From Granulicella sp. (GTDB lineage: Bacteria; Acidobacteriota; Terriglobia; Terriglobales; Acidobacteriaceae), in contig DAHWOF010000022.1 of NCBI GenBank assembly GCA_027335345.1, positions 1 through 47,139 on the forward strand: 47,139 nucleotides of DNA, read 5' to 3'. How positions within the stretch are numbered: the stretch's first letter is position 1; every line of letters starts with the position of its first letter. A model generated the notes under the pieces. That model saw only the letters and a program-made list of their open reading frames with translations. It did no database searches and was not told the DNA's origin. Below, piece after piece: positions 6,884 to 37,045 of the stretch. The translations under genes were made by a program, and so were the position numbers.

Positions 6884-6955
6884 ACCGAAGATGACATCCG
6901 ACGGGCAAAGGTTCGAGAGATTTTGCAGTCACAATTCAAGCAACGAGGTACTTGC

Positions 6956-7468
6956 ATGGCTTTTGTATCGCACATCGTTCGGAGAAGAGGATCCGCCCCT
7001 CTCGCCGCCATCTTGCTCGCCACAGCCGCATTCTCAGCCTGCTGCCCAGCCTACGCGAAGCCGCGTAGCACGGCCTCACCTAAGGCCGGCTGTGCCTACG
7101 TGCCGGTGTCGAATGCTCCTACCCCAAAATCTAGCGCTGCAACCCTTCAGCAGCCTCAGGCAACGGCAATCAGCGGCATCGTCAAGGTTCAGGTTCTCGG
7201 CGTAGCCATCCCGTTCACTTCCTTCGGAATTATCCACCGCCTGCAGACTGTTCCCGGGGTGGCGAGTGTTCAGTTCAACCTGAAAGAGGGCGAAGCAATT
7301 CTGACCCTCAAGCCTGGAGCCTACATAACAGATGAGATCTTGCGTGATGCGGTCCGCGATGCAAGCTACAGCCCAGGCAAGATTGAGTGGGCATCAAAGC
7401 AGGTACAAGAGGCGCACGGCCAGGCGCAGAACTGCGAGATGTCCCCCAAGACTCAGAAGGTGGGATAA
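6956..7468 (+). CDS. Exported MerP/HMA-fold protein lacking the metal-binding CxxC
   Basis: 170 aa. The signal peptide ends near AYA (residue 34), and a low-complexity linker runs to about residue 70. A C-terminal ferredoxin-like domain (about 72-145) resembles MerP and other heavy-metal-associated domains: beta strand, helix with the VPGVASVQF turn, and a final helix with DAVRDASYSPG. In MerP the first loop reads GMTCxxC; here it is GVAIPFTSF, so both metal-binding cysteines are missing. The start was chosen at the ATG with GAGG upstream. It is last of three genes for envelope proteins next to a CusRS-like pair. It may bind another ligand or act as a structural partner; metal transfer by the usual thiolate mechanism is unlikely. 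Confidence 0.75.
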   Translation: MAFVSHIVRRRGSAPLAAILLATAAFSACCPAYAKPRSTASPKAGCAYVPVSNAPTPKSSAATLQQPQATAISGIVKVQVLGVAIPFTSFGIIHRLQTVPGVASVQFNLKEGEAILTLKPGAYITDEILRDAVRDASYSPGKIEWASKQVQEAHGQAQNCEMSPKTQKVG

Positions 7469-8018: not shown

Positions 8019-8059
8019 GTGACTTTTGTCATAGCTTGAGCCCTTGCACTCAGTAAAAT
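8019..8059 (+). promoter_or_regulatory. CRP/FNR-type site plus -10 element driving the nitrate operon
   Basis: The palindrome GTGACTTTTGTCAT (8019-8032) has the TGAC-N4-GTCA core of CRP/FNR-superfamily regulators. A TAAAAT -10 hexamer lies at 8054-8059. The dyad centre (8025.5) is about 41 bp ahead of the start site expected 7 bp after the -10, the class II geometry of FNR-activated promoters. A nearly identical site precedes the octaheme cytochrome gene. Confidence 0.65.
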
Positions 8060-8138: not shown

Positions 8139-9311
8139 ATGACGCAGGAGCAATCAACGGCACGACTTCAATTGACGTTGGGTACTGGCGCGTTTGCGCT
8201 CTGTTTTGCAGTCTTTGGTTCTCTCTCCGCCATGATGCCGATCCTCAAGCGTCAGATGCACCTCACGGCCGTCCAGACAAGCATCGCGATAGCCCTTCCC
8301 GTTCTTCTGGGCAGCATCGGGCGAATTCCGCTGGGCATGCTCACTGACCGCTTCGGCGGACGCGTGGTCTTCAGCGCCGTCATGATGCTCTCCCTTATCC
8401 CCGCATTTCTCATGGGCGGGGTTCATGACTTCAACCAGCTCCTGATTTACGGATTCCTGATCGGAATTGGCCTTGCCAGCTTTTCGGTGGGAGTCGGCTT
8501 CGTCAGTGGCTGGTACACGGCGGAGCGTCAGGGCTTTGCGTTGGGCGTCTACGGCGCCGGAAACATCGGGCAGTCTCTGGCTGCGTTTGGAGCGCCCGTC
8601 CTGGCAACAGCCTATGGATTCCGTTGGGGCTTCTGGACCTTCGGCCTCCTGCTGGCCGTCTGGCTCGCGATCTTTGCCGTGGCGGCTCACAATGCTCCGC
8701 AGCGCGGCAGCGCAAAGAGTTTTACAGAAACCCTTCGTCCCCTCAGCGATCGTCGCAGTTGGGTGCTCAGTATCTACTACTTTCTCACCTTTGGCGGATT
8801 CGTTGCCATGGCCGTCTATCTGCCCATCTTCCTCACTGAGATGTTTCACCTCACCCCGGAGAATGCTGGCCTGCGATCCGCGGGATTTGTAGTCCTGGCG
8901 ACACTGATGCGCCCAGTGGGGGGAATCCTCGCAGACAAGGTTGGGGGTCGCAGCATCCTGATGTGGGTCTTTCCCGCCACCGGCTTGATGGCCGCACTCA
9001 TGGCCGTTCCCCTGATGGCCACTTTCACCGTAGGAGCTCTGGGCATGGCCGCAGCCATTGGCCTGGGCAATGGAGCGGTCTTCAAACTGGTTCCTGAATT
9101 CTTTCCTCAGTCGGTCGGCAGCGTCACCGGTCTGGTTGGCGCAGCCGGCGGTCTGGGTGGATTCTTTCCGCCTCTGGTGCTAGGCTTTGTCAAACAGAAG
9201 ACCGGAACATTCTTGCCCGGTTTTCTGCTGCTCAGCGCCTTCTGCCTGCTGTGCCTCCTTCTGCTGGCAACTCAGCGCAAATCACAACCTGCAATGGTGA
9301 CTGCCGAATGA
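8139..9311 (+). CDS. narK: NarK/NasA-type MFS nitrate/nitrite transporter
   Basis: 390-aa inner-membrane carrier with about 12 helices that moves nitrate in and/or nitrite out. It belongs to the nitrate-nitrite porter branch of MFS. It has the loop 2-3 motif [10 protein letters not shown] and the two Gly-rich nitrate signature regions, [15 protein letters not shown] (about residues 140-155) and [15 protein letters not shown] (about 330-345). The start is the ATG at 8139 with GAGGAA upstream; an upstream TTG in frame adds 26 unlikely residues. Its TGA overlaps the ATG of the next gene (ATGA), so it is the first gene of the operon. Transport direction cannot be read from the sequence. Confidence 0.92.
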
Positions 9312-10393
9312 CCCCTGCCAGAAACTCACTCCGTCAGCCGCGGCTCTCCGATGCCACTCATGCCATGTTCTGGGGCCTGGCAACCGCCTCTCTGTTGATC
9401 CTCGGCATCCTCACTGGCAGCCGCGGCCTGCGCGATTTCGACCCAGCGCTCGTCTCCTATGCGGGAGCCGCGGTGCTCTCCGGCTTTGGCATCGGCTACC
9501 GCTACGCCATGTGGCTTCGCCGCCCTCCCACCCGTCTTTACTGGTATCGCGGCTGGCAGATCTTTCTTGCTCCCCAGAAGCTTCTTTCAAACCTCGCTCA
9601 TCTGGCGCGGATCGCCTGGAACACCATTGTGCTCCAGCGGTTTATCGAGCGGCGCTCCCATCTGCGCTGGACCGCGCACTGGTTCCTCGCCTGGGGCTGC
9701 ATCCTCGCCGCCGCCGTCACCTTTCCCCTCTCCTTCGGCTGGATTCGATTTGAGACCGCGCGCACCAATCAGGAGATCTACCGAGCCTTCATGTTTGGCA
9801 TCCCGCTCGGCAGCTTCCATCTCGGCACGCCCTTCGCCGAAATGACCTTTGACATCCTCGACATTGCCGCCGTCATGGTCTTGATCGGTGTATTCTTCGC
9901 CCTCTGGCGTCGCGGCCACGACCATGGCGCATGGTCCGTGCAGCAGTTTTCTGACGACATGCTGCCGCTCATCCTTCTCTTCGCCATCTCCACCACAGGC
10001 CTGTTCCTCACCGTCTCCACCCACCTGATGCAGGGCATCTATTACGGTTTTCTCTCTCAACTCCATGCCGTTACCGTGATCTTCACCCTGCTCTACCTTC
10101 CCTTCGGAAAGTTCTTCCACATCTTTCAGCGCCCCGCGCAGATTGGCGTCAACTTCTACAAGCAGGCAGGGGCCTCTGGACCGCAAGCCCGCTGCCATCG
10201 CTGCGGCCAGGAGTTCGCAAGCCGCATGCACATTGACGACCTCAAATCCGTTCAGGCGGCTCTGGGCATCCGGTATCAACTCTCCAATGGCCTGCACTAT
10301 CAGGACATCTGTGCCGCCTGCCGCCGCAAGAATCTGGCACTCACCCAGGATGGCCTCTGGAAGTCCTACGACAACAGGTTGAGAGGTAACTAG
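9308..10393 (+). CDS. NarI-like membrane cytochrome b with four-Cys C-terminal tail
   Basis: 361 aa, about six membrane helices (near 18-36, 48-66, 123-145, 183-201, 217-237, 250-270). It resembles the NarI/DsrM/HdrE group of di-haem quinol-oxidising cytochromes b. Possible haem-ligand histidines in or beside helices include His124, His171, His239, His253 and His271. After the last helix comes a soluble domain of about 85 residues with CHRCG (296-299) and CAACRR (335-338), a probable zinc or Fe-S site. The start overlaps the narK stop. Inferred role: pass quinol electrons to the molybdenum subunit encoded next. The exact family and haem count need alignment. Confidence 0.75.
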
Positions 10394-10407
10394 TTGAGAG
10401 GTAACTA
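10378..10407 (+). repeat. Tandem 15-bp duplication over the cytochrome b stop codon
   Basis: Two perfect adjacent copies of GTTGAGAGGTAACTA at 10378-10392 and 10393-10407. The first copy encodes the last residues and most of the stop codon of the cytochrome b gene. The second supplies a GAGAGG ribosome site 11 bases ahead of the nitrate reductase ATG at 10413. Confidence 0.9.
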
Positions 10408-10412
10408 AAGGA

Positions 10413-12635
10413 ATGGCAAAACTCCCGTGCCCGGCTCCGGAGATCGTCCAGCAGTACGGTCCAAGTCTTCATACCATTCCCTCCGGGGGATGGGTCCGCA
10501 ACCCGCAGGACGAGCATCTGGTCAAGACCCACTGTTGCTTCTGCGGCCAGCAATGCGGCATTCAACTGCGCGTCAACAACAACAAGGTGGTCGGCTTTGA
10601 GCCTTGGGAAGACTGGCCCTTCAATCAGGGCAAACTCTGCCCCAAAGGCATCAAGCGCTACATGCAGGACGAACACCCCGACCGGCTCACCAGCCCCTTG
10701 GAACGAGTGGAAGGCAAAGGTTTTGCCCCGATCGGCTGGGATGCTGCCTTGGATCGCGTTGCTTCCGAGATTCAACGAATTCAAGGCAAGTATGGAAAAG
10801 ATTCCTTCGCCGTCCTCACTGGCGCCTCCCTGGTCAACGAGAAGGCCTATCTGATGGGCAAATTTGCCCGCGTCGCACTGCAGACCGCCAACATCGATTA
10901 CAACGGCCGCCTGTGCATGGTCTCCTCCGCTACAGCATCCAAAAAAGTCTTCGGCATCGACCGCAGCGCCAATCCCTGGAGTGACATCGTTCTCGCCGAT
11001 GTGATCCTCGCGGCAGGGGCAAACATATCCGAGACCTCGCCCATCACAACCGACTATTTCTGGAGAGCCCGCGATCGAGGCGCCAAGATCATCATCATCG
11101 ATCCCCGCATGACCCCGATTGCGCGCAATGCCGACCTGTACATCCCCGTTCGTTCCGGAGGCGACATCGGCATCTTCAACGGCATGCTCCACATTATGAT
11201 CCAGCGTGGCTGGATCGATCATGACTTCATTGCGCAGCACACCACCGGTTTTGAAGAAGTGGCCCGTTCGGTCGAAAAGTACACGCCGGAGTACGCTGCG
11301 AAGATCGCCGGCGTTCCCCCTGCAATGATCATCCGAGCCGCCGAGCTCTTTGGCCCTGCCAAAACCAGCTTCGTACTCCATGCCAAAGGCATCGAGCATC
11401 ACTCCAAAGGAGTCGAGAACTGCATCGCCGCCATGTCCCTCGTCCTTGCCTCCGGCCGTATCGGCCGCGAGGGCTGCGGCTACGCCATGATCACCGGCCA
11501 GGGCAACGGACAGGGAGCCCGCGAGCAGGGTGGAAAGTGCGACCAGCTCCCGGGGAACCGCGATATCTCCAACCCCGAGCATCGCAAGTACATCGCCGAG
11601 GTGTGGGGCGTCCCCGAAGAGTCCATCCCCCAGAAAGGACTCTCGGCCATCCCCCTGGTCGAGGCGATCCACGAAGGCAAGATCAAAGGTCTGATCTCCA
11701 TCTGCTTCAATCCCATCGTCTCCCTGCCAGATGCAAATTTCACCCGCGCAGCCTTCGAAAAGCTCGAGTTTTACGCCAACATCGACTTCTTCCTCTCCGA
11801 GACCTCGCGCTACGCGGATATCGTCCTCGCCGGCTCTCTGATGGAGGAAGATGAGGGAACCACCACCAACACTGAAGGCCGCGTGATCCGCCACCGCAAG
11901 GCAGTACTTCCCCCGGAGGGAGCGCGTGAAGACTGGAAGATCATCTGTGATATCGCCCGCCGCCTCGGCCATGGAGACAAGTTCAACTTCTCCGGCACGG
12001 AAGAGATCTTCAACGAGTTGCGGGTCGCCACCAAAGGAGGCGTCTCCGACTACTTCGGTATCACCTGGGACAAGATCGAGAAGAACAACGGCGTATGCTG
12101 GCCATGCCCAACACCCGAACACCCGGGGACTCCGCGTCTCTACGAGAACGGAAAGTTCGGTCACCCCGACGGCAAAGCGCACTTCATTCCCGTCGAATGG
12201 CGACCATCCGCCGAGATGCCGGACGCTGAATACCCCATCATCTTGACCACTGGCCGCGTAGTCGCGCACTTCCTCTCCGGCACACAAACCCGCAGAATCG
12301 GGGCTCTCATCGACCAGACACCTCAGCCCCTCTGTGAGATTCATCCCCAGCTCGCAACAAAGCTGGGGATCGCGGATGGGGACTATGTCAAAGTGGAGAG
12401 CCGCCGGGGTAGCGTGGTCGTTCACGCCATGGTCGTCAAGACGATTCGCCCCGATACGGTCTTCATCCCATGGCATTGGCCGCTGGATCGTTCCGCCAAC
12501 AACCTGACCGTCCGCGCCATCGATCCGCAGTCCTTCATACCGGAGTACAAGATCTGCGCCGTGCGCGTCTCCAAAGCCGACGCTCCTCATGATGCAATCG
12601 CCTCGCTCGAAGTACAGGCCGGAGGTGTCCGTTGA
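10413..12635 (+). CDS. Molybdopterin nitrate reductase catalytic subunit, Nas/Nap-type
   Basis: 740-aa bis-MGD molybdoenzyme, predicted to reduce nitrate to nitrite. The N-terminal [4Fe-4S] motif has Cys41, Cys44, Cys48 and Cys76 (C-x2-C-x3-C-x27-C). The segment [15 protein letters not shown] places Cys168 where Nap/Nas enzymes have the Mo-ligand cysteine; a Sec/Cys formate dehydrogenase motif is not seen. The [20 protein letters not shown] segment and the C-terminal molybdopterin dinucleotide-binding domain (about residues 615-730) are present. There is no twin-arginine signal, so it should act in the cytoplasm. Flanking genes for a nitrate carrier, cytochrome b, ferredoxin and Rieske protein support respiratory rather than assimilatory use. 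Another oxyanion or a formate dehydrogenase-like substrate is less likely. Confidence 0.87.
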
Positions 12636-13258
12636 TCCGCAGAGAGTTCTTCATCGATTACTCGCGCTGCATCGGTTGCAGGGCATGCGTTCAGGCCTGC
12701 GCCGAGTGTGATACCCACCGCGGCAACAGCATGATCCATCTGGAGACCATCGAACGACGCGACACCCTGCAGACCGCGCCGCAGATCTGCATGCATTGCG
12801 ACGACCCGGTCTGCGCCCGTGTCTGTCCTGCCGACGCCATCAAGAAAACCCCGGACGGCGTTGTACAAAGCTCGCTCAAACCGCGCTGCATCGCCTGCTC
12901 CAACTGCGTCGTCTCCTGTCCGTTCGGCGTGCCAAAGTACATGGCGGAGTTCGAACAGATGATGAAGTGCGATATGTGCTATGACCGCAGCAGCATCGGC
13001 AAAAAGCCCATGTGCGCCACCGTGTGCCCCTCCGGCGCGCTCACCTACACCACCATGGAAGAGGTGCAGCGCACCCGGCCCGGCATCCCCGTCAACTCCT
13101 GGAAGTTCGGCGGCGAAGAGGTCACCACCAAGGTGCACGTCATGGTTCCGCGCGAAACCACACGCGTCGAAATTGACCTGATTCAGATCCAGCCCACGCC
13201 GCAGGCCCTGCCGGCGGATCCGTACGATGTAGCTCTCATGTTGGAGATGGCGCAATGA
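12632..13258 (+). CDS. Four-cluster [4Fe-4S] electron-transfer subunit (DmsB/NrfC type)
   Basis: 208 aa. Four cysteine groups are visible: [11 protein letters not shown] (13-23), [24 protein letters not shown], and a split CDMC...CATVC group. This is the pattern of DmsB, PsrB and NrfC subunits that wire molybdoenzymes to membrane partners. The start is TTG in a TTGA overlap with the molybdoenzyme stop, with a strong GGAGGTG 5-8 bases upstream. There is no signal sequence, so it probably sits on the cytoplasmic face with the catalytic subunit. The last ~60 residues after the final cluster are not typical of the family and may contact the cytochrome or Rieske partner. Confidence 0.92.
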
Positions 13259-13785
13259 ACCCTCAAGTGGACAACAGTGAAAATCCGCAACACTGCATAG
13301 CCTGCAGCAATCCCAGATACCAGCAGGACTTTCCCATCGAGTGGGAGGGCGACCACTATGTCAGCCGCCGCGAGATGGTCAAGTTCCTTACCCTCGGCTC
13401 GCTTCTCTTAGCCGCTGCCAACTGGATCACAACGCTTGCGAAGCGGTGGATCCGCCAAGACTCCAACGCCGTACAGTTGCTTGGACCGGCAACTTCGCTC
13501 GAAGCCAACGGATCCATGCTCTTTCGCTATCCCACCGCAGACTCCCCCTGCATCGCCATACGAACGCCCAAGGGAGCCCTCGTCGCCTATTCGCAGGTCT
13601 GTACCCATCTCTCCTGCGCCGTTGTCTATGACAAGGCAGGAAATCGCATCGAGTGCCCCTGCCATCGCGGCGCCTTCGATGTTGAAAACGGAGCTCCTAT
13701 CGCCGGGCCTCCCACGCGGCCGCTGGCAAAGGTCACCATCGAGCAGCGCGGAGACAAGATCTACGCAACCGGCATGGAGGTGTAA
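13255..13785 (+). CDS. Tat-anchored Rieske [2Fe-2S] protein
   Basis: 176 aa. The Rieske fold is clear: CTHLSC (Cys116, His118, Cys121) and CPCHRGAF (Cys134, Cys136, His137) give two Cys and two His ligands plus the disulfide pair. A membrane helix at about 42-60 is preceded by [10 protein letters not shown], a twin-arginine motif, as in QcrA-type Rieske proteins, so the cluster should face the periplasm. Before it lies a short cytoplasmic segment with CIAC (14-17). ATGA overlap with the preceding gene. In this operon it suggests a quinol-oxidising half-complex like the Rieske/cytochrome b of haloarchaeal nitrate reductases. A role as the exit route to periplasmic cytochromes is also possible. 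Confidence 0.92.
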
Positions 13786-14016
13786 ATGAGCATCCGCACC
13801 CAGGGATCCACCCTCTTCAGCGCCATTCTGATCCTGGTGGGCACCACGATCGTCGTGCAGTTGTGGCTGCTCACCTTCTCCATGGAAGCCCTGCTCAGCC
13901 ATCGCTTTGCGATCCTGATCCCGGCTGCTGTCGCCTCCACCATCCTCCTGCTCGTCAACGCAGGACTTCTGCGCTACGTCTTCCGCTTTGACCGCGAAGC
14001 AGGTAGAGAAAACTGA
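13786..14016 (+). CDS. Small two-helix membrane protein of the nitrate operon
   Basis: 76 aa starting directly after the Rieske stop codon, with GGAGGT upstream. Two hydrophobic helices (about 10-30 and 41-63) and a short charged tail. No Cys, His pair or other cofactor motif was recognised. Its place directly after the Rieske gene suggests a structural subunit of the membrane complex. I do not recognise a named family. Confidence 0.8.
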   Translation: MSIRTQGSTLFSAILILVGTTIVVQLWLLTFSMEALLSHRFAILIPAAVASTILLLVNAGLLRYVFRFDREAGREN

Positions 14017-14040
14017 GCAGCAGGCAGAGAAAGCTGAGCA
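13999..14040 (+). repeat. Imperfect 21-bp tandem duplication over a stop codon
   Basis: Two adjacent 21-bp copies (13999-14019 and 14020-14040) differing at two positions. The first covers the last codons and stop of the small membrane-protein gene; the second lies just after it. This is the second such stop-codon duplication in the operon. Confidence 0.8.
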
Positions 14041-14063
14041 GCACACAAAGTCGCTTGCATAGA

Positions 14064-14095
14064 TAGCAACCACATGCGTGGGCAGGTGGTTGCTA
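14064..14095 (+). terminator. Strong hairpin after the nitrate operon
   Basis: TAGCAACCAC and GTGGTTGCTA form a perfect 10-bp stem with a 12-base loop. It lies 48 bp after the last gene of the operon and ahead of the cytochrome promoter, where a terminator or mRNA-stabilising hairpin would fit. No T-tract follows, so factor-independent termination is uncertain. Confidence 0.5.
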
Positions 14096-14177
14096 CCCTC
14101 AGCGTTATCCTCACCCCTCAACACACCCTCTCTCCCTCTCAACCCTCCGCCACTGGACCTGCCTGGCCTCGACCGCT

Positions 14178-14220
14178 GTGACTTAAGTCATTGTCCAGAC
14201 CGGCCTTGGAAGGCGATAAA
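14178..14220 (+). promoter_or_regulatory. CRP/FNR-type site plus -10 element upstream of the octaheme cytochrome
   Basis: GTGACTTAAGTCAT (14178-14191) contains the perfect 12-bp palindrome TGACTTAAGTCA and differs at only two central bases from the site before narK. A GATAAA -10-like hexamer lies at 14215-14220, putting the dyad centre about 42 bp ahead of the inferred start. The implied leader to the ATG at 14333 is about 105 bases long; no stable structure was recognised in it. Confidence 0.6.
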
Positions 14221-14332
14221 GAGAGAACGCCCTTCCTCCTTCATCTCCCGAGAGCTGGAAGAACGCGTTGAATGCCCATGCCATATCCATGTACCAGCGA
14301 GCGTGCGGGCAAGGGCAGAGGAGCAGGGGAGC

Positions 14333-15679
14333 ATGAGAGCATTCTTCGTCGGGTTGTGTACGTTCGTCTTCTTTTCCGTACCAGCACTCCAGGCGCAAAC
14401 TCCGAAGGGGACCGGCGCCGCTGCACACCTCACGCCGCCAAAGGTTGTTCATCCAAAGTTTTCCGCTCAGGGGCAGGCGTGCCTCGCCTGCCACTCCGCA
14501 TCCACGCCGGCGCTCGTTCAACAGTGGAAAGATAGCAAACACTACCAGCACGGCGTCGACTGTTACTCCTGCCACAAGGCAAATCCAGACGACCCCGCAA
14601 CCGTGGATCACTACGGCCAGAAGGTCGCCATCATCGTCACGCCTAAATACTGTGGAAACTGCCACGCCAAGGAAACTGACCAGTACGAGCACAGCCGCCA
14701 TGCGCAGGCAACCCAGTTCATCGGCTCTCTGGACAACGTGCTCGGCGAGGTGGTCGAGGGAGCCCCGGCCGTCCAGAGCGAGTGCGTGCAATGCCACGGA
14801 AGCAAGGTGAAGTACCTTGGGGACGGCAAGTTCGACTCATCCACCTGGCCGAACAGCGGCGTGGGACGGGTGAATCCCGACGGCAGTCTTGGCTCCTGTG
14901 CCGCCTGCCACGGACGGCACAGCTTCAGTGTCGCCCAGGCTCGCGCCCCGGAGACCTGCGGCAAATGCCATATGGGTCCAGACCATCCGCAGATTGAGAT
15001 CTACAACGAGTCGATGCACGGCATCCTCTACCGCGCCAACCGCGACAAGATGAACCTCAACAGCAAGACCTGGATCGTCGGCAAGGACTACACTGCCGCG
15101 CCAACCTGTGTCACCTGTCACATGGGCGGCACGCCAGATCATCCTGAGCCGACCCACGACACCGGAACTCGCCTGAGCTGGACCTTGCGTCCTGCAGTCA
15201 GCATCCACCAGGCTGATTGGCAGAACAAGCGTGCGGCAATGCAGGACGTGTGTCTGAACTGTCACGCCAGCGGCATGGTTAACAACTTTTATAAACAGTT
15301 TGATGACTCAGTGAACTTCTATAATGCCAAGTATGGCGAGCCCTCAGCCGCAATCATGAAGAAACTCACTGACACCGGCGCCATCACCACCACGCCCTTC
15401 GATACCCAGATCAAGTGGGATTACTTCGAGATGTGGCACCACGAGGGTCGCGCCGCGCGTATGGGCTCGGCCATGAACGGCCCGGACTACACCCAATGGC
15501 ACGGCTTCTATGAAGTTGCAAAGGACTTCTACATGAGATTCCTTCCTGAAGCAGAGAAGCTTTCGCCCGGCATTACCAAAGATGTTGTCAACTCACCGGA
15601 CAACATCTGGCTGAAAGGCCTCAGCAAGCAACAGATCCAGCAGGAGATCGACTACTACAAGAAGAGGTACAATCAGTAG
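14333..15679 (+). CDS. Octaheme cytochrome c, hydroxylamine-oxidoreductase (HAO) family
   Basis: 448 aa, periplasmic: signal peptide about residues 1-21 (cut near LQA|Q). Eight CxxCH haem sites have their first Cys at 50, 77, 107, 151, 189, 209, 259 and 307. The stretches VGRVNPDGSLGSCAACH, ETCGKCHMGPDHPQIEIY and the C-terminal YFEMWHHEGRAARMG followed by YTQWHGFYE are typical of the HAO family, not of NrfA or tetrathionate reductase. The start is the ATG with AGGGGAG upstream. HAO-like proteins without ammonia oxidation genes usually reduce nitrite. Next to a nitrate reductase and sharing its regulatory site, this is the likely nitrite reductase. At 448 aa it is shorter than ammonia-oxidiser HAO. 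No NapC/NrfH-type partner gene is adjacent. Confidence 0.88.
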   Translation: MRAFFVGLCTFVFFSVPALQAQTPKGTGAAAHLTPPKVVHPKFSAQGQACLACHSASTPALVQQWKDSKHYQHGVDCYSCHKANPDDPATVDHYGQKVAIIVTPKYCGNCHAKETDQYEHSRHAQATQFIGSLDNVLGEVVEGAPAVQSECVQCHGSKVKYLGDGKFDSSTWPNSGVGRVNPDGSLGSCAACHGRHSFSVAQARAPETCGKCHMGPDHPQIEIYNESMHGILYRANRDKMNLNSKTWIVGKDYTAAPTCVTCHMGGTPDHPEPTHDTGTRLSWTLRPAVSIHQADWQNKRAAMQDVCLNCHASGMVNNFYKQFDDSVNFYNAKYGEPSAAIMKKLTDTGAITTTPFDTQIKWDYFEMWHHEGRAARMGSAMNGPDYTQWHGFYEVAKDFYMRFLPEAEKLSPGITKDVVNSPDNIWLKGLSKQQIQQEIDYYKKRYNQ

Positions 15680-15831
15680 CTCTGGAAGCGGAGCCCTCTT
15701 GCGACTCGTCCCGCCGGAGTGCTCCGCCACGACCATCGAGATCGGTAAACCCTCGGAGCTCGACCTGCAACAGCCTTCGTGCGACGTTCCGCGCCGAGCG
15801 GAACCACCCCAACCCGGAGGAACAACCGTCT

Positions 15832-16434
15832 TTGGCAATCGCTCCCGATCTACAGCCGCTTCTCGCCGGCGTTGCGGCGATGCACAAGCACCTATGCCCC
15901 AGACAGGTTCTGGGGCTGCGCATGGGGCTCCTTGCCGGCGAGTTGCTCGGGCTGGAGTTGCCCCAGCAGAACAAGCGTCTCCACACGTTCGTCGAGACCG
16001 ATGGCTGCTTTGTCGATGGAGTCACTGTAGCTACTGGCTGCTCGGCAGGCCACCGTACCCTGCGCGTCATGGATTACGGCAAGGTGGCCGCGAGTTTCGT
16101 GGACACCAAAACAGGCAGAGGCGTCCGCATCTGGCCCCATCTGAACTGCCGGACCAACGCCGGGAAATACGCCCCCCAGGCCGCGAATCGTTGGCAGGCT
16201 CAGCTTCATGCCTACCAGATCATGCCCGCGGCGGAGCTTCTATCCGCAAGCAGCATTGAGCTGCTCATCGATCTCAAAGCGTTGATCGCTAAACCTGGGG
16301 TTCGCGTGAACTGCAACGCCTGTGGAGAAGAGATCCTCAACCAGCGAGAGGTGATCCAGGACGGCCAGACGCTCTGCCGCGCCTGCGCGCACGGCGGCTA
16401 TCTTCGCATCGTGGACGATGGCATCCCAAGCTGA
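15832..16434 (+). CDS. FmdE-family protein with C-terminal zinc-finger-like motif
   Basis: 200 aa. The N-terminal part (about 10-130) matches the FmdE family (formylmethanofuran dehydrogenase subunit E-like): MHKHLCPRQVLGLRMG near residue 17 and ETDGCFVDGVTVATGCSAGH at 55-74, the family's metal-binding and fold-defining segments. The C-terminal NCNACGEE and LCRACAHGG (Cys161, 164, 182, 185) form a probable zinc site. The TTG start has GGAGGAA about 10 bases upstream. Archaeal FmdE works with a molybdenum/tungsten enzyme. Here the neighbours are a molybdenum nitrate reductase and a cytochrome, so a cofactor-related role is conceivable but unproven. Confidence 0.75.
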   Translation: MAIAPDLQPLLAGVAAMHKHLCPRQVLGLRMGLLAGELLGLELPQQNKRLHTFVETDGCFVDGVTVATGCSAGHRTLRVMDYGKVAASFVDTKTGRGVRIWPHLNCRTNAGKYAPQAANRWQAQLHAYQIMPAAELLSASSIELLIDLKALIAKPGVRVNCNACGEEILNQREVIQDGQTLCRACAHGGYLRIVDDGIPS

Positions 16435-21811: not shown

Positions 21812-23281
21812 CTACATGCGAGCCTCCCTAGGATCCGCGCCGGGCCCGCGCGGGTCGGCTGCGAGCGAATTCATCCGCAGAGCCTGCAGCAACAGCGGCC
21901 CTGCCTGTGAGACGCTCCCGGCGCCCAGCGTCAGTATCATCTCCCCGGGCCGCGCCTGCTGGGCAAGACGCTCGATCGCCTCCGCCATCGACGCCGCATA
22001 GGTCACGCGGCCACCCTCTTTCTCCCTTATCGCCGCCGCCAGCGCCTGGCCCGTGATCCCCTCGATCGGATGCTCGCTGGCTGCATAGATATCCAACACC
22101 GTCACCGAATCCGCCTCCTCAAAGGCGGTCGCGAACTCTGCCATCAGATCCCGCGTCCGGCTGTAGCGGTGGGGCTGGAAGAGCACCAGCACGCGTCCAT
22201 AGCCACACTCCCGTGCAGCCTGCAGCGTGGCTCGAATCTCCGTCGGGTGGTGCCCGTAGTCATCGATCACCGTCACCCCACCTTCAACGCCGCGTACCTG
22301 GAAGCGCCTATCCACGCCTCGAAACGACGCCAATCCCGCGGCAATCTTCTCCGGCGCCAAGCCGAGCTGCACGCCGATCGCTACCGCGGCAGTGGCATTC
22401 AGGACGTTGTGCCGTCCTGGAACATGCAGCTCAAAGGGTCCCCATACCATGCCCCGTGCATTCACCTCAAAGCGCGCGCACGGCCGGCAGGCTCTGCCGC
22501 CGTCATCGCAAGCAGCGCTGGAGCCCGTCTCAGCCGGCAGAAGGCGCAAGCGAAAGTCGGCTTCCGGCCCAGCGCCGTAGGTGTACACCTTGCGCCGCAC
22601 GCGGGGCAAGATCTCGCGCAGCCGGGGGTCGTCGACGCAAGCCGTCACGGCTCCGTAAAACGGAACCTTGTCCATGAACTCGACAAAACAGTTCTCCACA
22701 TCGCTCATATCCGCATAGGAGTCCATATGCTCCCGATCCAGGTTTGTCACGATAGAGAGAATCGGCGACAGCTTGAGAAAGCTGCGGTCGCTCTCATCGG
22801 CCTCGGCCACAAGATACTGTGAGCGACCCAAACGGGCATTGGACCCCAACGCGTCCACTCTGCCGCCCACCACCACGGTTGGGTCCAGTTCTCCTCCGGC
22901 CAGCACGGCAGCCACCATCGAGGTTGTTGTCGTCTTGCCATGCATTCCCGCCACAGCGATCCCGTACTTCAGCCGCATCAACTCGGCCAGCATCTCCGCT
23001 CGCTGAATCACGGGTATCTTCTGCTCCCGCGCCACCAGCACCTCCGGGTTGTCCGGCACGATGGCCGAACTGGTCACCACTACATCACTGCCGACGGCGT
23101 TGCTGGCTGCATGGCCTACATAAATGGCCGCCCCCAACCGTTGCAGACGCTCAGTTACCGGCGAGGAGCGCAGATCCGAGCCTGAGACGCTATAACCCAT
23201 TGTCAGCAGGATCTCCGCGATCCCACTCATTCCGATCCCACCAATCCCTATGAAATGCACCCTCTGCGACGGTGCAAACAT
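21812..23281 (-). CDS. murC: UDP-N-acetylmuramate--L-alanine ligase
   Basis: Adds L-alanine to UDP-MurNAc, the first amino-acid step of peptidoglycan precursor synthesis, in the cytoplasm. 489 aa from the ATG encoding MFAPSQRVHFIGIGGIGMSG. The N-terminal nucleotide-fold motif GIGGIGMSG, P-loop GMHGKTTTTSM, EADESDRSFL, TNLDREHMDSY and the FQPHRYSRT segment are all typical of MurC. A longer frame upstream (to 23482) gives 67 residues of poor quality and was not used. It is the last gene of the dcw cluster, separated from murG by a plus-strand gene. The C-terminal ~20 residues are Arg/Gly/Pro-rich and variable. Confidence 0.95.
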   Translation of the reverse strand: MFAPSQRVHFIGIGGIGMSGIAEILLTMGYSVSGSDLRSSPVTERLQRLGAAIYVGHAASNAVGSDVVVTSSAIVPDNPEVLVAREQKIPVIQRAEMLAELMRLKYGIAVAGMHGKTTTTSMVAAVLAGGELDPTVVVGGRVDALGSNARLGRSQYLVAEADESDRSFLKLSPILSIVTNLDREHMDSYADMSDVENCFVEFMDKVPFYGAVTACVDDPRLREILPRVRRKVYTYGAGPEADFRLRLLPAETGSSAACDDGGRACRPCARFEVNARGMVWGPFELHVPGRHNVLNATAAVAIGVQLGLAPEKIAAGLASFRGVDRRFQVRGVEGGVTVIDDYGHHPTEIRATLQAARECGYGRVLVLFQPHRYSRTRDLMAEFATAFEEADSVTVLDIYAASEHPIEGITGQALAAAIREKEGGRVTYAASMAEAIERLAQQARPGEMILTLGAGSVSQAGPLLLQALRMNSLAADPRGPGADPREARM

Positions 23282-23723
23282 CGCATGTTCCGGCAACCTT
23301 GCCCCCTTCTTTCTTTTCTTATTGTCCCACCTCATCCTCTGCAAGCTTGAGTTTCGGGCACGGCCGCTTTCAGGCCTTCCCTCTATCCTGTTCGCAGCGC
23401 TCCTGGGTAAACCGGCACTCCGGCCCTGCCTCACACCAGTCCGGAGCAATCTATATAAATAATTGAAATATAAGGAGATCAACTTTCAGCGTGAACCTGT
23501 TCCTGGCCAAGACAACTCCACCAGCCACCGGCTCCCAGCCCCGGACCCCAAAAGTACTGCAAAGTTCATCAGTCCAACCTGCGGCCGTCGCAACTTAAAT
23601 TCAATGATTTGTGTCTAATCGTACCGAGAGCCTGAGCGTGGACAACGCCAGACTTTGAGACTCCTGCCCGTACTCGCAATCCGGATCAACGGTATCTTGA
23701 GGCGGCTGGAAGGGTAACCGATC
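23282..23723. other. 442-bp divergent promoter region between murC and the YXWGXW gene
   Basis: It contains an AT-rich block (about 23449-23475, TATATAAATAATTG) that stands out in this GC-rich DNA and may hold the murC promoter and/or that of the plus-strand gene. A very short frame starting at a GTG near 23491 follows AGGAG at too long a distance and is not counted as a gene. Confidence 0.5.
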
Positions 23724-24506
23724 ATGAAACTCAGAGGCGCAGTTCGCAACGTCTTCGCCGCTATAACCATCGCAGCAGCGGCCTTATCTGTCTTGCTGCC
23801 GGCAACTCCGTCCCAGGCGATGATCTTCATCACGGCCGGCTATGCTCCGCCCCCAATTCCTGTCTACGCCCAGCCGCCTTGCCCGGGCGATGGATACCTG
23901 TGGACGCCTGGCTACTGGGCGTGGGGCGGAGGAGGCTACTTCTGGGTGCCCGGCGCCTGGGTGCTTCCGCCTTACGCCGGCGCCCTTTGGACCCCCGGCT
24001 ACTGGGGATGGAATGCCGGTTACTATACCTGGTTCCCGGGCCACTGGGGTCTCTCCGTTGGATACTACGGCGGCATCAACTACGGCTTTGGATACTTTGG
24101 CGTCGGCTTCTACGGCGGCTTCTGGGCTGGGAGCCACTTCATGTACAACCGCGCCTACACCAATTTTTACCCCGGCTTCCGCGGAAACTTTTATAACCAT
24201 CCCTACGCCGGCTTCAGCGGTCGTCCGGGAGGAGCTTCCTTCACCCAGCAAGTGGCGTTCCGCGGCGGTGCAGCCTTCCGGGGCTCCGCCATCGGCGGTG
24301 TTAGCCATGGCGGCTTCGGTGCATCCGGAGCCATGAGCAGCGCTAGTCACTTCTCCAGTGGTGCTGCCGGCGAGCACTTCGGCGGTTCCGGAAATAGCCT
24401 TGGCGGTGCGACTGGCAGTCACTTCGGAGGTGCTGCCGGTGGCATCGGCCGTTTCGGCGCTGGCGGTAGTCACTTCGGCGCTAGCGGCCTTGGCCATGTA
24501 CGTTAA
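23724..24506 (+). CDS. Secreted YXWGXW-repeat protein with Gly/Ser/His-rich tail
   Basis: 260 aa. Signal peptide about residues 1-32 (cut near SQA|M). Residues about 50-115 contain four aromatic repeats of the type GYWxWGGGGYFWVPG and LWTPGYWGWNAG, characteristic of the YXWGXW/WxxGxW repeat family (PF12779 type) of Gram-negative envelope proteins. The rest is Gly/Phe/Tyr-rich, ending in repeats of SHFGG and GASG. It lies on the opposite strand inside the dcw cluster, 76 bp from the murG stop, and must have its own promoter. Function of the family is not established; a cell-surface structural role fits. Confidence 0.85.
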   Translation: MKLRGAVRNVFAAITIAAAALSVLLPATPSQAMIFITAGYAPPPIPVYAQPPCPGDGYLWTPGYWAWGGGGYFWVPGAWVLPPYAGALWTPGYWGWNAGYYTWFPGHWGLSVGYYGGINYGFGYFGVGFYGGFWAGSHFMYNRAYTNFYPGFRGNFYNHPYAGFSGRPGGASFTQQVAFRGGAAFRGSAIGGVSHGGFGASGAMSSASHFSSGAAGEHFGGSGNSLGGATGSHFGGAAGGIGRFGAGGSHFGASGLGHVR

Positions 24507-24582
24507 GGCTGCCTCTATGTGAATGCGCCGCTTTGCAAGGGATTTGGAGGGACTCTCGGAGCAAGATCGATATCCCTGCTGT

Positions 24583-25716
24583 CTACCCCGCCAACCGCAG
24601 CACCATCTCCGCAATCCGATCAAGCGCGCCCGGCTTGGCCAAGGCCCGTGCGCGCTCTGCCATCGCTCTCCGACGCGGTTCATCCCGGAGCAGCCCCAGC
24701 AACGCTTCTCGCAGCGTCTCGGCGGTGACATCCTTTTGCAGCAGCATCTCTGCCGCGCCAGCCGCGACCATCGCCTCTGCATTCCTGCGCTGGTGGTCAT
24801 CCGCAGCCGTGGCCAGCGGCGCCAGCAGGGAGGGCTTGGCAGCCGCGCATAACTCGGCTACGGTGCTCCCGGCCCGGGCCAGCACCAGGTCAGCCGCGGC
24901 GTACTGCTGCGGCATGTCCGTCAGGAACGCCTCCACCACCCAGCGCGCGGCGTCAGCCCCGCTGGCCGCATAGGCCGCTCTTGTAGACTCCAACTGCCTG
25001 GCTCCGGCCTGATGAACAATGGTCAGCCCTGGAACCTCCTCCATCAACTGCTTCGCGATCAACGGCATGGTCTGGTTGAATATCAGGGCGCCATTGCTGC
25101 CGGCAGTCACCAGCAGCCGCGGAGCATGGTGCTCCGCAACTGCCTCTGCCCTCGGCGCTGCGGCAAAGATCTCCGGCCGCACCGGAACCCCCGTGACCTC
25201 GGCACCGCGAAAGTACGGCGCTGTCTGGGCAAAGTTCACTGCGGCCGCGTTCACATGCCGCCCCAGCCACCGGTTGGTGAGCCCTGGCACGGCATTGGGC
25301 TCATAGGCCAGAGTAGGAATCCGGAGCAGCAACGCCGCAATCATCGCCGGTCCGCTGGCGTAACCGCCTACGCCTACCACCACCTGAGGCTGGAACTCCC
25401 GCAACAGAGCGACACAGCGCAGCACACCCAACGGTAGATCCATCATGGTCCGCAGCCGCGTCATCAGGCTTACATTCTTCCACTGGCCGGAGCGCACCAG
25501 CTCCAGCCGAAAGCCTGCCTCCGGCGCCAGCCGCGTCTCCAGCCCGCGCGCCGTCCCAACCAAACACACCTCGGCTTCATATCGATCGCGCAACGCCCGC
25601 CCAATCGCCAGCGCCGGCATCACGTGCCCGCCCGTGCCTCCTCCGGCAATCATCACTCGCAACGCTTTGTCTCTCACTCGGTTCGCAACCCGATCCTTTG
25701 CGGCCTTGCCCGGCAT
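24583..25716 (-). CDS. murG: UDP-GlcNAc transferase to lipid I
   Basis: Membrane-associated GT28 glycosyltransferase that converts lipid I to lipid II. 377 aa from the ATG at 25716; an ATG at 25653 (MIAGGGTGGH) is an alternative start. Motifs: GGGTGGHVMPALAI, GVGGYASGPAMIAA, YEPNAVPGLTNRWLG, TAGSNGALIFN, and the UDP-GlcNAc site ARAGSTVAELCAA. Typical length for the family. It follows ftsW by 58 bp and ends facing the convergent YXWGXW gene instead of running into murC. Confidence 0.95.
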   Translation of the reverse strand: MPGKAAKDRVANRVRDKALRVMIAGGGTGGHVMPALAIGRALRDRYEAEVCLVGTARGLETRLAPEAGFRLELVRSGQWKNVSLMTRLRTMMDLPLGVLRCVALLREFQPQVVVGVGGYASGPAMIAALLLRIPTLAYEPNAVPGLTNRWLGRHVNAAAVNFAQTAPYFRGAEVTGVPVRPEIFAAAPRAEAVAEHHAPRLLVTAGSNGALIFNQTMPLIAKQLMEEVPGLTIVHQAGARQLESTRAAYAASGADAARWVVEAFLTDMPQQYAAADLVLARAGSTVAELCAAAKPSLLAPLATAADDHQRRNAEAMVAAGAAEMLLQKDVTAETLREALLGLLRDEPRRRAMAERARALAKPGALDRIAEMVLRLAG

Positions 25717-25774
25717 CGGCGACCGGCTTCCGGCTCGCTATCTCCGCCGGAAAGCCATCCTTGACCCTCGGGCT

Positions 25775-26866
25775 TCAATCGATCTCGCGGGTCATATTCA
25801 ACAGCACGCCCATGCAGGCCAGGGTCACAAAGATGCTGGTTCCACCTGAGGAGATCATGGGAAGCGGCAAGCCCTTGGTCGGCAACAGGGCCAGCACCAC
25901 GCTCATATTGAAGAACGCCTGCACCAGCACGATCGTGGTCAAGCCAAAGGCCAGAAACCGCGCAAACGGGTCGGTAGAAAGATACGCCGCCCGGAGCCCG
26001 CGATAGCCCAGAATGCAGAACGCCGTCAGCACGCAGAGAGCGCCAATCAACCCCAGCTCTTCACATATGTTGGCGAAGATGAAGTCGGTGTGCGGCTCGG
26101 GAAGGTAGAAGAGCTTCTGCCTTCCCTCCATCAATCCCAAACCGCGAATCCCTCCTGTCCCCACCGCGATCAGCGACTGCAAGATGTGGAACCCAGCCCC
26201 GCGAGGATCAGCATCCGGATGCATGAAGACGAACATGCGCTTGGCTCGCCAGGCCACATGGAAGAGCATGTAATAGATCACCGGCGAGGCGGCGGCTCCG
26301 CCCACCAGAACCCACTTCAACGGCATCCCGGCCAGAAACAGCATCAGCGTCATCACCGCCGCACACACCAGGGCCGTCCCCAGATCCGGCTCCTTCAAAA
26401 TCAGCGCAATGAAGAGCAGCGGCGGAATCACAGCCGGCAGAATCGTCTCCTTGAAGTCGTCGATGGCGTGAATGCGCGTCTGCAGATACCAGGCCAGAAA
26501 CAGCACAATCATCGGCTTGGCCAGCTCGGAGGGCTCCAACGTGATGCCGGGGAAACGCACCCAGCGATGCGCTCCATTCATCCCGCCCCAGGCAAAGACG
26601 GAGAGCAGCAATGACCCCGTGATGCCCATCAGCGCAAAGACCAGCTTGGCATTGTTGTACTTCTTGTAATTCACGCGCATCAGCGCAAACAGCACGATCA
26701 TGCCCGCCAGGGCATATCCGGCCTGCTTACTGACATACGCATACGGCGAGCCCAACGTCGCCTTGGCCAGCACCGCGGAGGCTGAAAAAACAGATACCAG
26801 CCCAAACAGAACCAGCAACAGCACGATGCCGAACAACCATTTGTCAACGCCAACGCGCTTTGCCAT
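25775..26866 (-). CDS. ftsW: Peptidoglycan polymerase FtsW (SEDS family)
   Basis: 363-aa integral membrane protein with about 10 helices; SEDS glycosyltransferase that polymerises lipid II at the septum together with the class B PBP. Motifs: GAHRWVRFPGITLEPSELAK, ILKEPDLGTALV with the catalytic-type Asp, LPEPHTDFIFANICEELG, and the C-terminal LPLPMISSGGTS. The FtsW assignment over RodA follows from its place between murD and murG. The start is the ATG encoding MAKRVGVDKW. Confidence 0.95.
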   Translation of the reverse strand: MAKRVGVDKWLFGIVLLLVLFGLVSVFSASAVLAKATLGSPYAYVSKQAGYALAGMIVLFALMRVNYKKYNNAKLVFALMGITGSLLLSVFAWGGMNGAHRWVRFPGITLEPSELAKPMIVLFLAWYLQTRIHAIDDFKETILPAVIPPLLFIALILKEPDLGTALVCAAVMTLMLFLAGMPLKWVLVGGAAASPVIYYMLFHVAWRAKRMFVFMHPDADPRGAGFHILQSLIAVGTGGIRGLGLMEGRQKLFYLPEPHTDFIFANICEELGLIGALCVLTAFCILGYRGLRAAYLSTDPFARFLAFGLTTIVLVQAFFNMSVVLALLPTKGLPLPMISSGGTSIFVTLACMGVLLNMTREID

Positions 26867-26908
26867 CCGCCTCTACACCCATGCAGCCCCGAACGCTACA
26901 CCCAGCAC

Positions 26909-28294
26909 TTAGGAAATTGCCGCCACCAGCTTTTTGAAGACTCGTCCGCGCTGCTCGTAGTTCTCGAACTGGTCAAAGCTGGCGCACGCCGGAGCCAGTA
27001 GCACCGTATCGCCTGGCGTCGCCGTCTTCTGTGCCAGCGCCACCGCTTGTTCCAGCGTCCCGGCTCTCTCTATCTTCACCATCCCGTCGAGTTGGCGCTC
27101 GATCTTTTCCGCGGCTGAACCAATCGTGATTACCGTTTTTACCCGCTCCCGCAACAACGGCTCCAGGACACGGTAATCGGAGCCTTTGTCCTTCCCCCCC
27201 AGGATCAGGTGAACTGCGCCGGTAAAAGCCTCCAGAGCCTTGATGGCCGCGTCCACATTTGTCGCCTTGGAGTCGGTGTAATACCTCACCCCACCGGTCT
27301 CGCGGACAAACTCCAGGCGGTGCTCCACGGCCTTGAAATCTCGCACCGCCGCGCGGATCGTCTCGCTCTCCACACCAGCCAGCCGCGCCGCGCATACTGC
27401 CGCCAGCACGTTCTCCTGGTTGTGCCCGCCAACCAGCGAAATCTCTGCTACCGGCATCACCGGCTCGGGCCTGGCTCCTTCCCGTGGCACATAGACAATC
27501 GACTCGCCGTAGACAAAGGCTCCCTGTTTGATAGCGCGCCGCCGGCTGAACCAGAACACCTGAGCGCCTCGGCCGGGGGGCGCAGTTCGTGCCGCCACCA
27601 TCTGTGCATTGGCGTCATCCGCGTTCAGCACCAGGAAGTCCTCGGCGCTCTGGAACTCCGTAATCCGCGCCTTCAGCGCCGCGTAGTGCTCAAAGCTTCC
27701 GTGCCGGTCCAGATGGTCCGGCGTGATATTCAACAGCAGCGCAATGCGCGGCTTGAAGCTCTCCACCGTCTCCAATTGGAAGCTCGAAACCTCCAGCACG
27801 CTCCAGCTCTCCGGCGTGCTCTCATCCACCATCGAGGTCACCGGCCTCCCAATGTTTCCACCCACCAAGGTCGGTCTGCCGGACGCCTTCAGAATCTCTC
27901 CGATCAGTGTCGTCGTGGTGGTCTTTCCATTGGATCCGGTCACCGCTACCACTTCGCCCTGCAGATACTCGGCCCCCAGCTCCAGCTCGCCGATAATGTG
28001 CGCACCCATGGCGCGCACCTGCTTCAACTCCGGCGTTGAAAGCGGCACGCCCGGGCTCACCACGATCAGATCCTGGCGCCGAAACGTCAGCAGCCCATGG
28101 CCGCCGGTCTCCACCATGAAGCCCTGATCAAGCATCTCGGAGATCTCCGCAATCAGCGTAGCCGGCCGGGCATCGCTCACCGTCACCCGGGCCCCGCGCG
28201 CCTTCAAAAAATGCGCCGCCGAGATCCCGCTCTTCCCCAGGCCCACCACCAACACGCGCTGATTCTTCAACTGATTTTGCTTCTTCATCTCCAT
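26909..28294 (-). CDS. murD: UDP-MurNAc-L-alanine--D-glutamate ligase
   Basis: Adds D-glutamate in peptidoglycan precursor synthesis. 461 aa from the ATG encoding MEMKKQNQ; the next Met, two residues on, is equally possible. A longer frame (to 28351) adds an unlikely N terminus. Motifs: VVGLGKSGISAAHFL, P-loop VTGSNGKTTTT, LLNITPDHLDRH, the C-terminal YTDSKATNVDAA, and GGKDKGSDY. The gene is preceded by a 281-bp spacer with three hairpins that separates it from the inserted hydrolase gene, so murD-ftsW-murG may have a separate expression level. Confidence 0.95.
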   Translation of the reverse strand: MEMKKQNQLKNQRVLVVGLGKSGISAAHFLKARGARVTVSDARPATLIAEISEMLDQGFMVETGGHGLLTFRRQDLIVVSPGVPLSTPELKQVRAMGAHIIGELELGAEYLQGEVVAVTGSNGKTTTTTLIGEILKASGRPTLVGGNIGRPVTSMVDESTPESWSVLEVSSFQLETVESFKPRIALLLNITPDHLDRHGSFEHYAALKARITEFQSAEDFLVLNADDANAQMVAARTAPPGRGAQVFWFSRRRAIKQGAFVYGESIVYVPREGARPEPVMPVAEISLVGGHNQENVLAAVCAARLAGVESETIRAAVRDFKAVEHRLEFVRETGGVRYYTDSKATNVDAAIKALEAFTGAVHLILGGKDKGSDYRVLEPLLRERVKTVITIGSAAEKIERQLDGMVKIERAGTLEQAVALAQKTATPGDTVLLAPACASFDQFENYEQRGRVFKKLVAAIS

Positions 28295-28385
28295 AAAACG
28301 TCCAGACCGGCTTCGGTTGCCCTCAAGAGATTCACCGCCAACCACACGCAAACTACCCGCGATGACATCTCACGCCTGCATCCCT

Positions 28386-28426
28386 AGCCTTAAGAAGGCT
28401 ATCATCCTGCCATCACCGGCAGGATG
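28386..28426 (-). promoter_or_regulatory. Twin hairpins upstream of murD
   Basis: Two perfect adjacent hairpins: AGCCTT-AAG-AAGGCT (28386-28400) and CATCCTGCC-ATCACC-GGCAGGATG (28403-28426, 9-bp stem, 6-base loop). They lie in the dcw transcript about 90 bp ahead of murD. Neither is followed by a T-tract. Processing, stability or attenuation are possible roles. Confidence 0.5.
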
Positions 28427-28540
28427 CGCACTCTACGGCAAAGGCCACAGACCCGTTGGAGCCGACGCTCCGTTGGCGTTTGACCAGCGCACCCAGCTCT
28501 CTGTCGATCTCGACGATCGCCTCGACGATCATCCCGGCGA

Positions 28541-28557
28541 TCCCCCTCAATGGGGGA
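28541..28557 (-). terminator. Short hairpin just after the hydrolase stop codon
   Basis: TCCCCC-TCAAT-GGGGGA: 6-bp perfect stem with a 5-base loop, 18 bp after the stop of the alpha/beta-hydrolase gene in the direction of transcription. No T-tract follows. Confidence 0.35.
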
Positions 28558-28575
28558 GACATCCTGGCGAAATCC

Positions 28576-29277: not shown

Positions 29278-29374
29278 CGCGGAATCTCCTGCCGACTACC
29301 ATCCTTGTTCCTCCGGACAGCCGATTTCAAGCAGGAATTCGCGCCGAGGAGGTTTGGCGGCCGGTCTCTGTTCA

Positions 29375-30511: not shown

Positions 30512-30652
30512 CGGATCTCGCCTCGTCAGTGTCTTCGAATCAGATCATCGAATCGCGGTTCTGGGCCCATCTTACCCTCTCTTGCGCGCCCTCTCTTGCG
30601 TGTCTATTCTTCCCGCCTCAAAAGTGAAAGACCAACCCAGCCCGGCGACGGC

Positions 30653-32098: not shown

Positions 32099-32163
32099 GC
32101 GCTCACCTCAGCCTTCCTCCAACCGTCGTCTCCCTCAAATCCACTCCAGAGCCCTACGCCAAG

Positions 32164-33804: not shown

Positions 33805-33807
33805 CCT

Positions 33808-36147: not shown

Positions 36148-36322
36148 CCTTGAATCCCTGTTCCCGTGCAAAGCTCCCTGCAACTTCAAAGCGATCGATT
36201 TCTCGCCAGGCTCTATCTCTTCCGCTTCTTTCCTGGCTGCCAGTGCCTATCTTCTTTTGCCAACGAATCGAATTCGTTTTGAAAGCAGCTCGAAGATCGC
36301 AGCTCTCCTGTTCCGGACCTCT

Positions 36323-36965: not shown

Positions 36966-37045
36966 CGGATGGGGGAAGGGACTTTTTGTTGCTATGGTTG
37001 TCTTTCGCCTGAAAGCACGGCTGGACAACCCCGGCCCGATCTCTC

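Follow-up and report, generated by a model that had tools for sequence, protein, structure and literature searches.

The stretch of DNA considered here (the window) is 47,139 nucleotides (nt) long and comes from a Granulicella sp. of the Acidobacteriota (GCA_027335345.1, contig DAHWOF010000022.1). The host assembly is 3.65 Mb and 85% complete, and the window is its contig 9. It carries genes for a NarK-family transporter, a NarI-like cytochrome b, a molybdenum (Mo) catalytic subunit of the NasC type, a four-cluster ferredoxin, a Rieske protein and a DUF6755 protein, followed by one for an octahaem cytochrome of the hydroxylamine oxidoreductase (HAO) family (Table 1). A preliminary description, made from the sequence alone, took them for an operon of nitrate-to-ammonium respiration. 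All the genes it listed are present, on the + strand and in the order given, but the tight run, in which adjacent genes overlap or stand about 20 bases or less apart, extends only from narK to the DUF6755 gene. The octahaem gene may be a separate transcript, because it follows after a gap of 316 nt and has a palindrome of its own upstream. Here we show that the first six genes constitute a conserved module, whose role looks respiratory, and that the octahaem cytochrome is not a fixed part of it.

Table 1. Genes and candidate sites of the nitrate reductase locus, with positions in the window
Feature	Positions	Strand	Basis
NarK-family nitrate/nitrite transporter	8139..9311	+	TIGR00886 210 bits, under cut-off 311.7
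NarI-like cytochrome b with C-terminal zinc-ribbon-like domain	9308..10393	+	PF02665 20.2 bits, slightly under cut-off 22.9
NasC-type nitrate reductase catalytic subunit (Mo-bis-pyranopterin guanine dinucleotide, Mo-bisPGD), without signal peptide	10413..12635	+	NF047855, Cys-Met/TGQ signature, tree
Ferredoxin subunit with four [4Fe-4S] motifs	12632..13258	+	PF13247 and further Fer4 families; 17 Cys
Membrane-anchored Rieske protein of twin-arginine translocation (Tat) type	13255..13785	+	PF00355; twin-arginine motif; single long helix
DUF6755 two-helix membrane protein	13786..14016	+	PF20540 67.6 bits
Secreted HAO-family octahaem cytochrome	14333..15679	+	eight CXXCH; PF13447
FmdE domain with DksA-type zinc finger; putative accessory protein	15832..16434	+	PF02663 105 bits
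Palindrome TGACTTTTGTCA 5' of narK; candidate regulator site	8020..8031	.	pattern TGACTTNNGTCA
Palindrome TGACTTAAGTCA 5' of octahaem gene	14179..14190	.	pattern TGACTTNNGTCA; similar site 5' of G345 relative L113

For a census of loci, the best 80 of 302 relatives of the cytochrome b were taken, one genome per species. All six genes are found in 40 of these loci and a further 17 are short of a NarK match only; the other 23 are mostly cut by contig ends or carry a fusion of NarK with the cytochrome b. Co-occurrence of the gene set in other genomes, which the preliminary description had named as a check on its proposal, is thus borne out. Two loci (L093 and L063) have the cytochrome b and Mo genes, with those for the ferredoxin and the Rieske protein absent from the sequence examined, and DUF6755 was not seen at L084. 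By record label, the 80 loci belong to Acidobacteriota, Planctomycetota, Armatimonadota, Chloroflexota (Herpetosiphon) and Myxococcota (Sorangium), with single metagenome-assembled genomes (MAGs) labelled Cyanobacteriota and Actinomycetota. Relatives of the Mo subunit and the Rieske protein also occur on four Deinococcus plasmids; the two plasmids examined encode the cytochrome b, Mo, ferredoxin, Rieske and DUF6755 proteins and a nitrate transporter, and have an FmdE gene nearby. The nearest named relatives of the window's cytochrome b are in Acidobacteriota genomes (top identity 95%). Across 396 genomes of this phylum, the module, called by a cytochrome b match of at least 77 bits (12 weaker matches were left out), is found in 60. 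It should be added that some results refer to a set of 109 loci that overlaps with the 80, that L079 and L146 look like one contig and some genomes are possibly counted twice, and that the phylum-wide Fisher p values ignore kinship among genomes.

The Rieske protein is found in 66 of the 80 loci, and most of the remainder are cut contigs. The ligand cysteines and histidines of its CxHxxC and CxCH boxes do not vary across alignments of 66 and 46 sequences, and the twin-arginine motif is present in 65 of 66. Its nearest solved relative, by sequence as well as by fold, is AioB. DUF6755 (PF20540) tracks the module: at E 0.001 it is matched in 52 of the 60 module genomes against 1 of the 336 others, and above the family cut-off in 37 against 1. 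Of the 52 matches, 51 lie on the cytochrome b contig, at most 5 kb away.

The catalytic subunit scores 804.6 bits against the NasC model (NF047855). Like the scores of the NarK and PF02665 models (210 of 312 and 20.2 of 22.9 bits), this is below the curated cut-off, here an equivalog threshold of 1100. The subunit is not a NarG (TIGR01580, 58.9 of 1084 bits), and AioA entries match it at only about 100 bits. The Mo-ligand site is Cys-Met in all 76 module sequences, as it is in NapA and Nas references; the second active-site position reads TGQ, again as in these references, in 73 and VGQ in three, which are myxobacterial. In a quick tree, built with ten outside references and containing several long branches, the module subunits form a single clade whose nearest neighbours are Paenibacillus and Mycobacterium enzymes encoded near nirB, and formate dehydrogenases and NapA/NasA fall outside this grouping. 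The phylogeny called for by the preliminary description thus places the clade as sister to NasC-type enzymes and not in a non-nitrate clade, a placement that is support rather than proof. Taken together, active-site signature and tree identify nitrate as the predicted substrate, in agreement with the earlier assignment to a signal-less Nas-type subunit. A loose twin-arginine pattern occurs in 3 of 74 Mo N-termini, the window's not among them, and there is no hydrophobic signal helix; a Tat signal of the Nap kind is therefore missing from the catalytic subunit.

The predicted fold of the cytochrome b is nearest to those of EtfD and NarI, which makes it a protein of the NarI fold. No bc-type cytochrome b appears in the fold list, which shows NarI, and no bc-type Pfam match or PDB sequence match was obtained. 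Foldseek alone gave no significant PDB match. Alignment of the family with NarI by HHalign was weak (probability 15%), yet two C-terminal histidines line up. H123, H252 and H270 are invariant in the module proteins, and three of the four haem histidines of NarI are kept; by hand alignment, the position of NarI H66, a ligand of the distal haem, is occupied by an invariant alanine (Ala133). Fusion of NarK to the cytochrome b is seen at 15 of 109 loci, as a single open frame of 535-874 residues that begins with the transporter and that in at least one case is cut by a contig end (L006, L010, L016, L018, L019, L020, L023, L024, L088, L094, L101, L103, L105, L107 and L109). Conservation of the gene set across loci supports the pairing of a NarI-like cytochrome b with a Nas-type subunit and a Rieske protein, as was proposed from the window.

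The company that the module keeps points to respiration. NrfA is found in 32 of the 60 module genomes and in 65 of the 336 others (Fisher p 1.4e-7, kinship not corrected), and all 32 have a full-length NrfH match. In 21 of the 32, NarG and NapA are both missing above cut-off, one of these genomes (G073) having a NarG match below it. In two genomes, the genes for the cytochrome b and the Mo subunit follow immediately on nrfH-nrfA (L145 in G051 and L146 in G063). In two others (L147 and L148, in G181 and G038) a single run encodes the cytochrome b, Mo subunit, ferredoxin, Rieske protein, a protein with two transmembrane helices, an MFS protein, NrfH, NrfA and another MFS protein. Genes for a RIC/ScdA protein and a CRP-type regulator are close to this run (both Pfam-checked in L147), and a RIC/ScdA-type cluster is found in 14 of the 80 loci (Pfam-checked in L037 and L147). 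The nitrate-to-ammonium physiology first suggested for the window thus gains from both the four shared runs and the enrichment of NrfA. The host itself, in its 85% complete assembly, has no NarG, NapA or NrfA (PF02335) match, consistent with the earlier remark that the classical Nar, Nap and NrfAH parts are missing, and its genome gave no copper nitrite reductase match.

The same complex could serve nitrogen assimilation instead, as a membrane-linked nitrate reductase in which quinol replaces NADH or ferredoxin. This would suit a NasC-type catalytic subunit that is sister to enzymes near nirB, and also the presence of the module in Herpetosiphon, Sorangium and Deinococcus, which are aerobic genera. 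We consider it improbable, however: the NIR_SIR domain of sirohaem nitrite and sulfite reductases is absent from 38 of the 60 acidobacterial carriers (E 1e-5) and NirB is above cut-off in 2, tests that cover acidobacterial carriers only; nrfHA lie in the same run in four genomes; and RIC and CRP-type genes are nearby in some loci. The host assembly has four NIR_SIR matches and no NirB above cut-off. The former (G000 C120:952-2675 and C19:2460-3662) include adjacent frames of 445 and 362 aa, DsrA/DsrB-like by arrangement only, and one frame of 630 aa; going by these sequences, the host may also handle sulfite.

The nearest solved relative of the octahaem protein is 4qo5, the Ignicoccus octahaem protein, followed by HAO, which places it in the HAO family; the best aligned stretch is about 200 residues with weaker flanking stretches, and the HAO alignments end before the region of the tyrosine cross-link. 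Its sequence makes it a candidate ammonifying nitrite (or hydroxylamine) reductase. The preliminary description had it as a standing part of the system, a view that the survey does not sustain. Of the 396 genomes, 91 have a match at E 1e-30 or better and 68 have one of 200 bits or more; 61 of the 68 genomes are without the module and only seven have it, and the octahaem cytochrome is not enriched with the module (7/60 vs 61/336, p 0.27). A relative is nearby in 5 of the 80 loci (L049, 73%, divergent; L057, 42%; L042, 34%; L048, a 62-residue piece; L051, 23%, remote). An obligate octahaem subunit can be rejected on these grounds, the module being without it in 53 of 60 carriers. All seven module genomes that have the octahaem protein lack NrfA, and in the phylum the two occur together in only 3 genomes where about 17 are expected (p 3.9e-6, kinship not corrected). 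Because no module genome has both and their co-occurrence is below expectation, the octahaem cytochrome looks like a stand-in for NrfA, one that is mostly used outside this module. Five of the seven genomes also lack NarG, NapA and NIR_SIR, the exceptions being G308 (NarG) and the host of the window (NIR_SIR).

In the window, the octahaem gene appears tied to the module by the palindrome common to its upstream region and that of narK. The pattern TGACTTNNGTCA has just these two sites in the window, at 8020 and 14179, where 0.08 would be expected, and occurs at six places in the whole assembly; none of the other four is a clear promoter of a nitrogen gene, the open reading frames (ORFs) being judged by eye. 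The looser TGACN4GTCA precedes the module at 10 of 76 loci, mostly of close relatives, against about 0.5 predicted from its rate elsewhere. It likewise precedes two octahaem genes out of 18, the one in the window and one of G345 (L149/L113); the latter is 82% identical to the former, has the same palindrome type upstream and lies in a genome without the module. As to an electron donor, no full-length NrfH-type protein was found in the seven module genomes with the octahaem protein, whose NapC-like matches (PF03264) are all partial and lie in frames of 477-1027 aa; in the host, the single partial match is in a 488-aa frame elsewhere. Another contig of the host (G000 C46:4000-10000, L165) has in a row genes for a 5-haem NapC-like, a cytochrome b-like and an 11-haem protein, the last two recognized by eye. 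From its gene content, this cluster is a possible donor to the octahaem cytochrome or another electron route.

We think it likely that the core of the module is a membrane-bound, cytoplasm-facing respiratory nitrate reductase with a catalyst recruited from the assimilatory NasC family, and that its nitrite is subsequently reduced to ammonium. We infer the electron path, quinol donor, topology, Rieske role and octahaem substrate as follows. NarK would import nitrate and export nitrite. The NarI-like cytochrome b would oxidize (mena)quinol, and the electrons would reach the Mo site by way of the four-cluster ferredoxin and there reduce nitrate to nitrite. DUF6755 and the periplasmic, AioB-like Rieske protein would be standing parts of the complex, the latter probably on the P side of this cytochrome, which there lacks one of the ligands of NarI's distal haem. 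Nitrite would then be reduced to ammonium in the periplasm; many carriers would use NrfHA for this, and the present host probably its octahaem cytochrome.

Several points weigh against this reading. Those characterised enzymes that are most closely related to the Mo subunit serve assimilation, and the tree rests on ten outside references with long branches. Tat-dependent co-export of the catalytic subunit is known from arsenite oxidase; the Tat signal of the Rieske protein may similarly co-export the Mo subunit, which would reverse the topology. In the 21 of 60 carriers that lack both NrfA and an octahaem match of at least 200 bits, nitrite may be the only product. In the present host, an assimilatory share is possible, given a MAG that is 85% complete and has NIR_SIR. 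Moreover, the Mo gene of L147 is split over two frames, the surveyed genomes are non-independent samples, and the support comes from genes, sequences and a predicted fold.

A bolder scheme, akin to the quinol split entertained in the preliminary description, would have the NarI-like cytochrome b exchange its distal haem for a docked Rieske protein, with one electron of the quinol going through the cytochrome b to cytoplasmic nitrate and the other through the Rieske protein to a periplasmic nitrite-reducing cytochrome (NrfA or octahaem). If true, Rieske-based quinol bifurcation would have been invented twice independently, the second time outside the cytochrome bc family, and in some lineages the nitrate importer would be built into the same protein as the bifurcating cytochrome b. 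The near-constant Rieske gene, the alanine at the position of H66 next to an invariant H252, and the lack of any full-length donor of the NrfH type in the seven carriers with an octahaem protein all speak for it, and Rieske-to-eHao transfer has been proposed for Caldithrix in the part of the source available (PMC5317091). We nevertheless hold such a split to be doubtful, and a Nar-like quinol path likelier: NrfA is served by a dedicated NrfH in all 32 module genomes that have it, most carriers do without an octahaem protein, the host's own multihaem cluster could feed the one it has, and in the sequence examined of L093 and L063 no Rieske gene accompanies those for the cytochrome b and the Mo subunit. 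Furthermore, nitrate takes two electrons and nitrite six, which does not fit a 1:1 split. Finally, that the Mo subunit is a formate dehydrogenase, as might be thought from its top-scoring solved relatives (534 bits) and from a TIGR01591 score of 626 bits, slightly under the cut-off of 666, is very nearly excluded by the higher score of the NasC model, by the active site (at the Mo ligand, Cys or Sec precedes His or Gln in the four formate dehydrogenase references, and their second site reads RGxNNVQG), by the separate position of these references in the tree, and by the linkage and fusion with NarK.

How the module, read as a Nar-like respiratory enzyme, relates to known systems deserves comment. 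With the NasC-type assimilatory reductases of Bacillus and Paenibacillus (NF047855) it shares the catalytic family, Cys-Met with TGQ, and the lack of a signal peptide; it differs in the NarI-like membrane anchor, the Rieske protein, DUF6755 and the company of NrfHA or an octahaem cytochrome. Known NasC-type enzymes work in assimilation with NirB/NADH or similar partners, as the accessible part of one study also describes (PMC3475470); for the module family as a whole, a sirohaem nitrite reductase partner is missing from most of the acidobacterial carriers. In Bacillus bataviensis, according to the same source, nasC is linked to hcp and to another gene of Rieske type. With NarGHI the module shares the plan of an Mo subunit, a four-cluster ferredoxin and a NarI-fold cytochrome b, accompanied by NarK, whereas the module has no NarG, keeps three of the four NarI haem histidines, adds the Rieske and DUF6755 proteins, and has no narJ in the run. 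AioBA is alike in that AioB, the nearest solved Rieske protein, also partners an Mo subunit of the DMSO reductase family. AioA is of a different Mo family and oxidizes arsenite, and to our knowledge AioBA has no ferredoxin or cytochrome b subunit. For the octahaem cytochrome, the Ignicoccus protein (4qo5) and HAO are fellow members of the eight-haem HAO family. The haloarchaeal analogy drawn in the preliminary description holds only loosely: the module's cytochrome b resembles NarI, and AioB is the solved protein closest to the Rieske protein. A closer published precedent is the cluster of Caldithrix abyssi, in which, as far as the portion of the source at hand describes it (PMC5317091), Nap, a Rieske/cytochrome b pair and an octahaem eHao are side by side, without NrfAH; there, however, NapA is periplasmic with NapM/NapGH, the Rieske and cytochrome b are bc1-like, and there is no nitrate transporter. 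In the open-access literature, outside which most subscription journals fall, we found no paper describing this gene set, DUF6755 or the NarK-cytochrome b fusion.

The remaining features of the neighbourhood can be dealt with briefly. The FmdE gene that follows the octahaem gene has homologues, also with a DksA-type zinc finger, near the module in L035 and on two Deinococcus plasmids; the combination recurs by the module in two phyla (L132 5421-6014; L144 15793-16410; L035 8058). On the other side, 6923-7468 (+) encodes a small, probably secreted protein with no Pfam match, whose C-terminal part is like a heavy-metal-associated domain by eye. The region 21812-41724 (-) has a murC-murG-ftsW-murD-mraY-murF-murE-ftsI-mraW run of cell-wall and division genes and then dxs, the ORFs being read by eye; this is an ordinary chromosome context. 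Promoter and terminator scans gave no signal above chance level, and an Rfam search gave nothing at gathering scores.

In sum, a 2023 survey confines NasC/NasA homologues, in the part available, to assimilation in the presence of oxygen (PMC10100899). The present module appears to place a NasC-type subunit in nitrate-to-ammonium respiration, in soil phyla. Because 21 of the 32 carriers with NrfA have neither NarG nor NapA above cut-off, surveys that look for narG and napA only would miss the first step of the pathway in these genomes. Through the module, DUF6755 gains a context, and both the transporter-cytochrome fusion and the pairing of a Rieske protein with a NarI-like cytochrome can be tested in cultured hosts.

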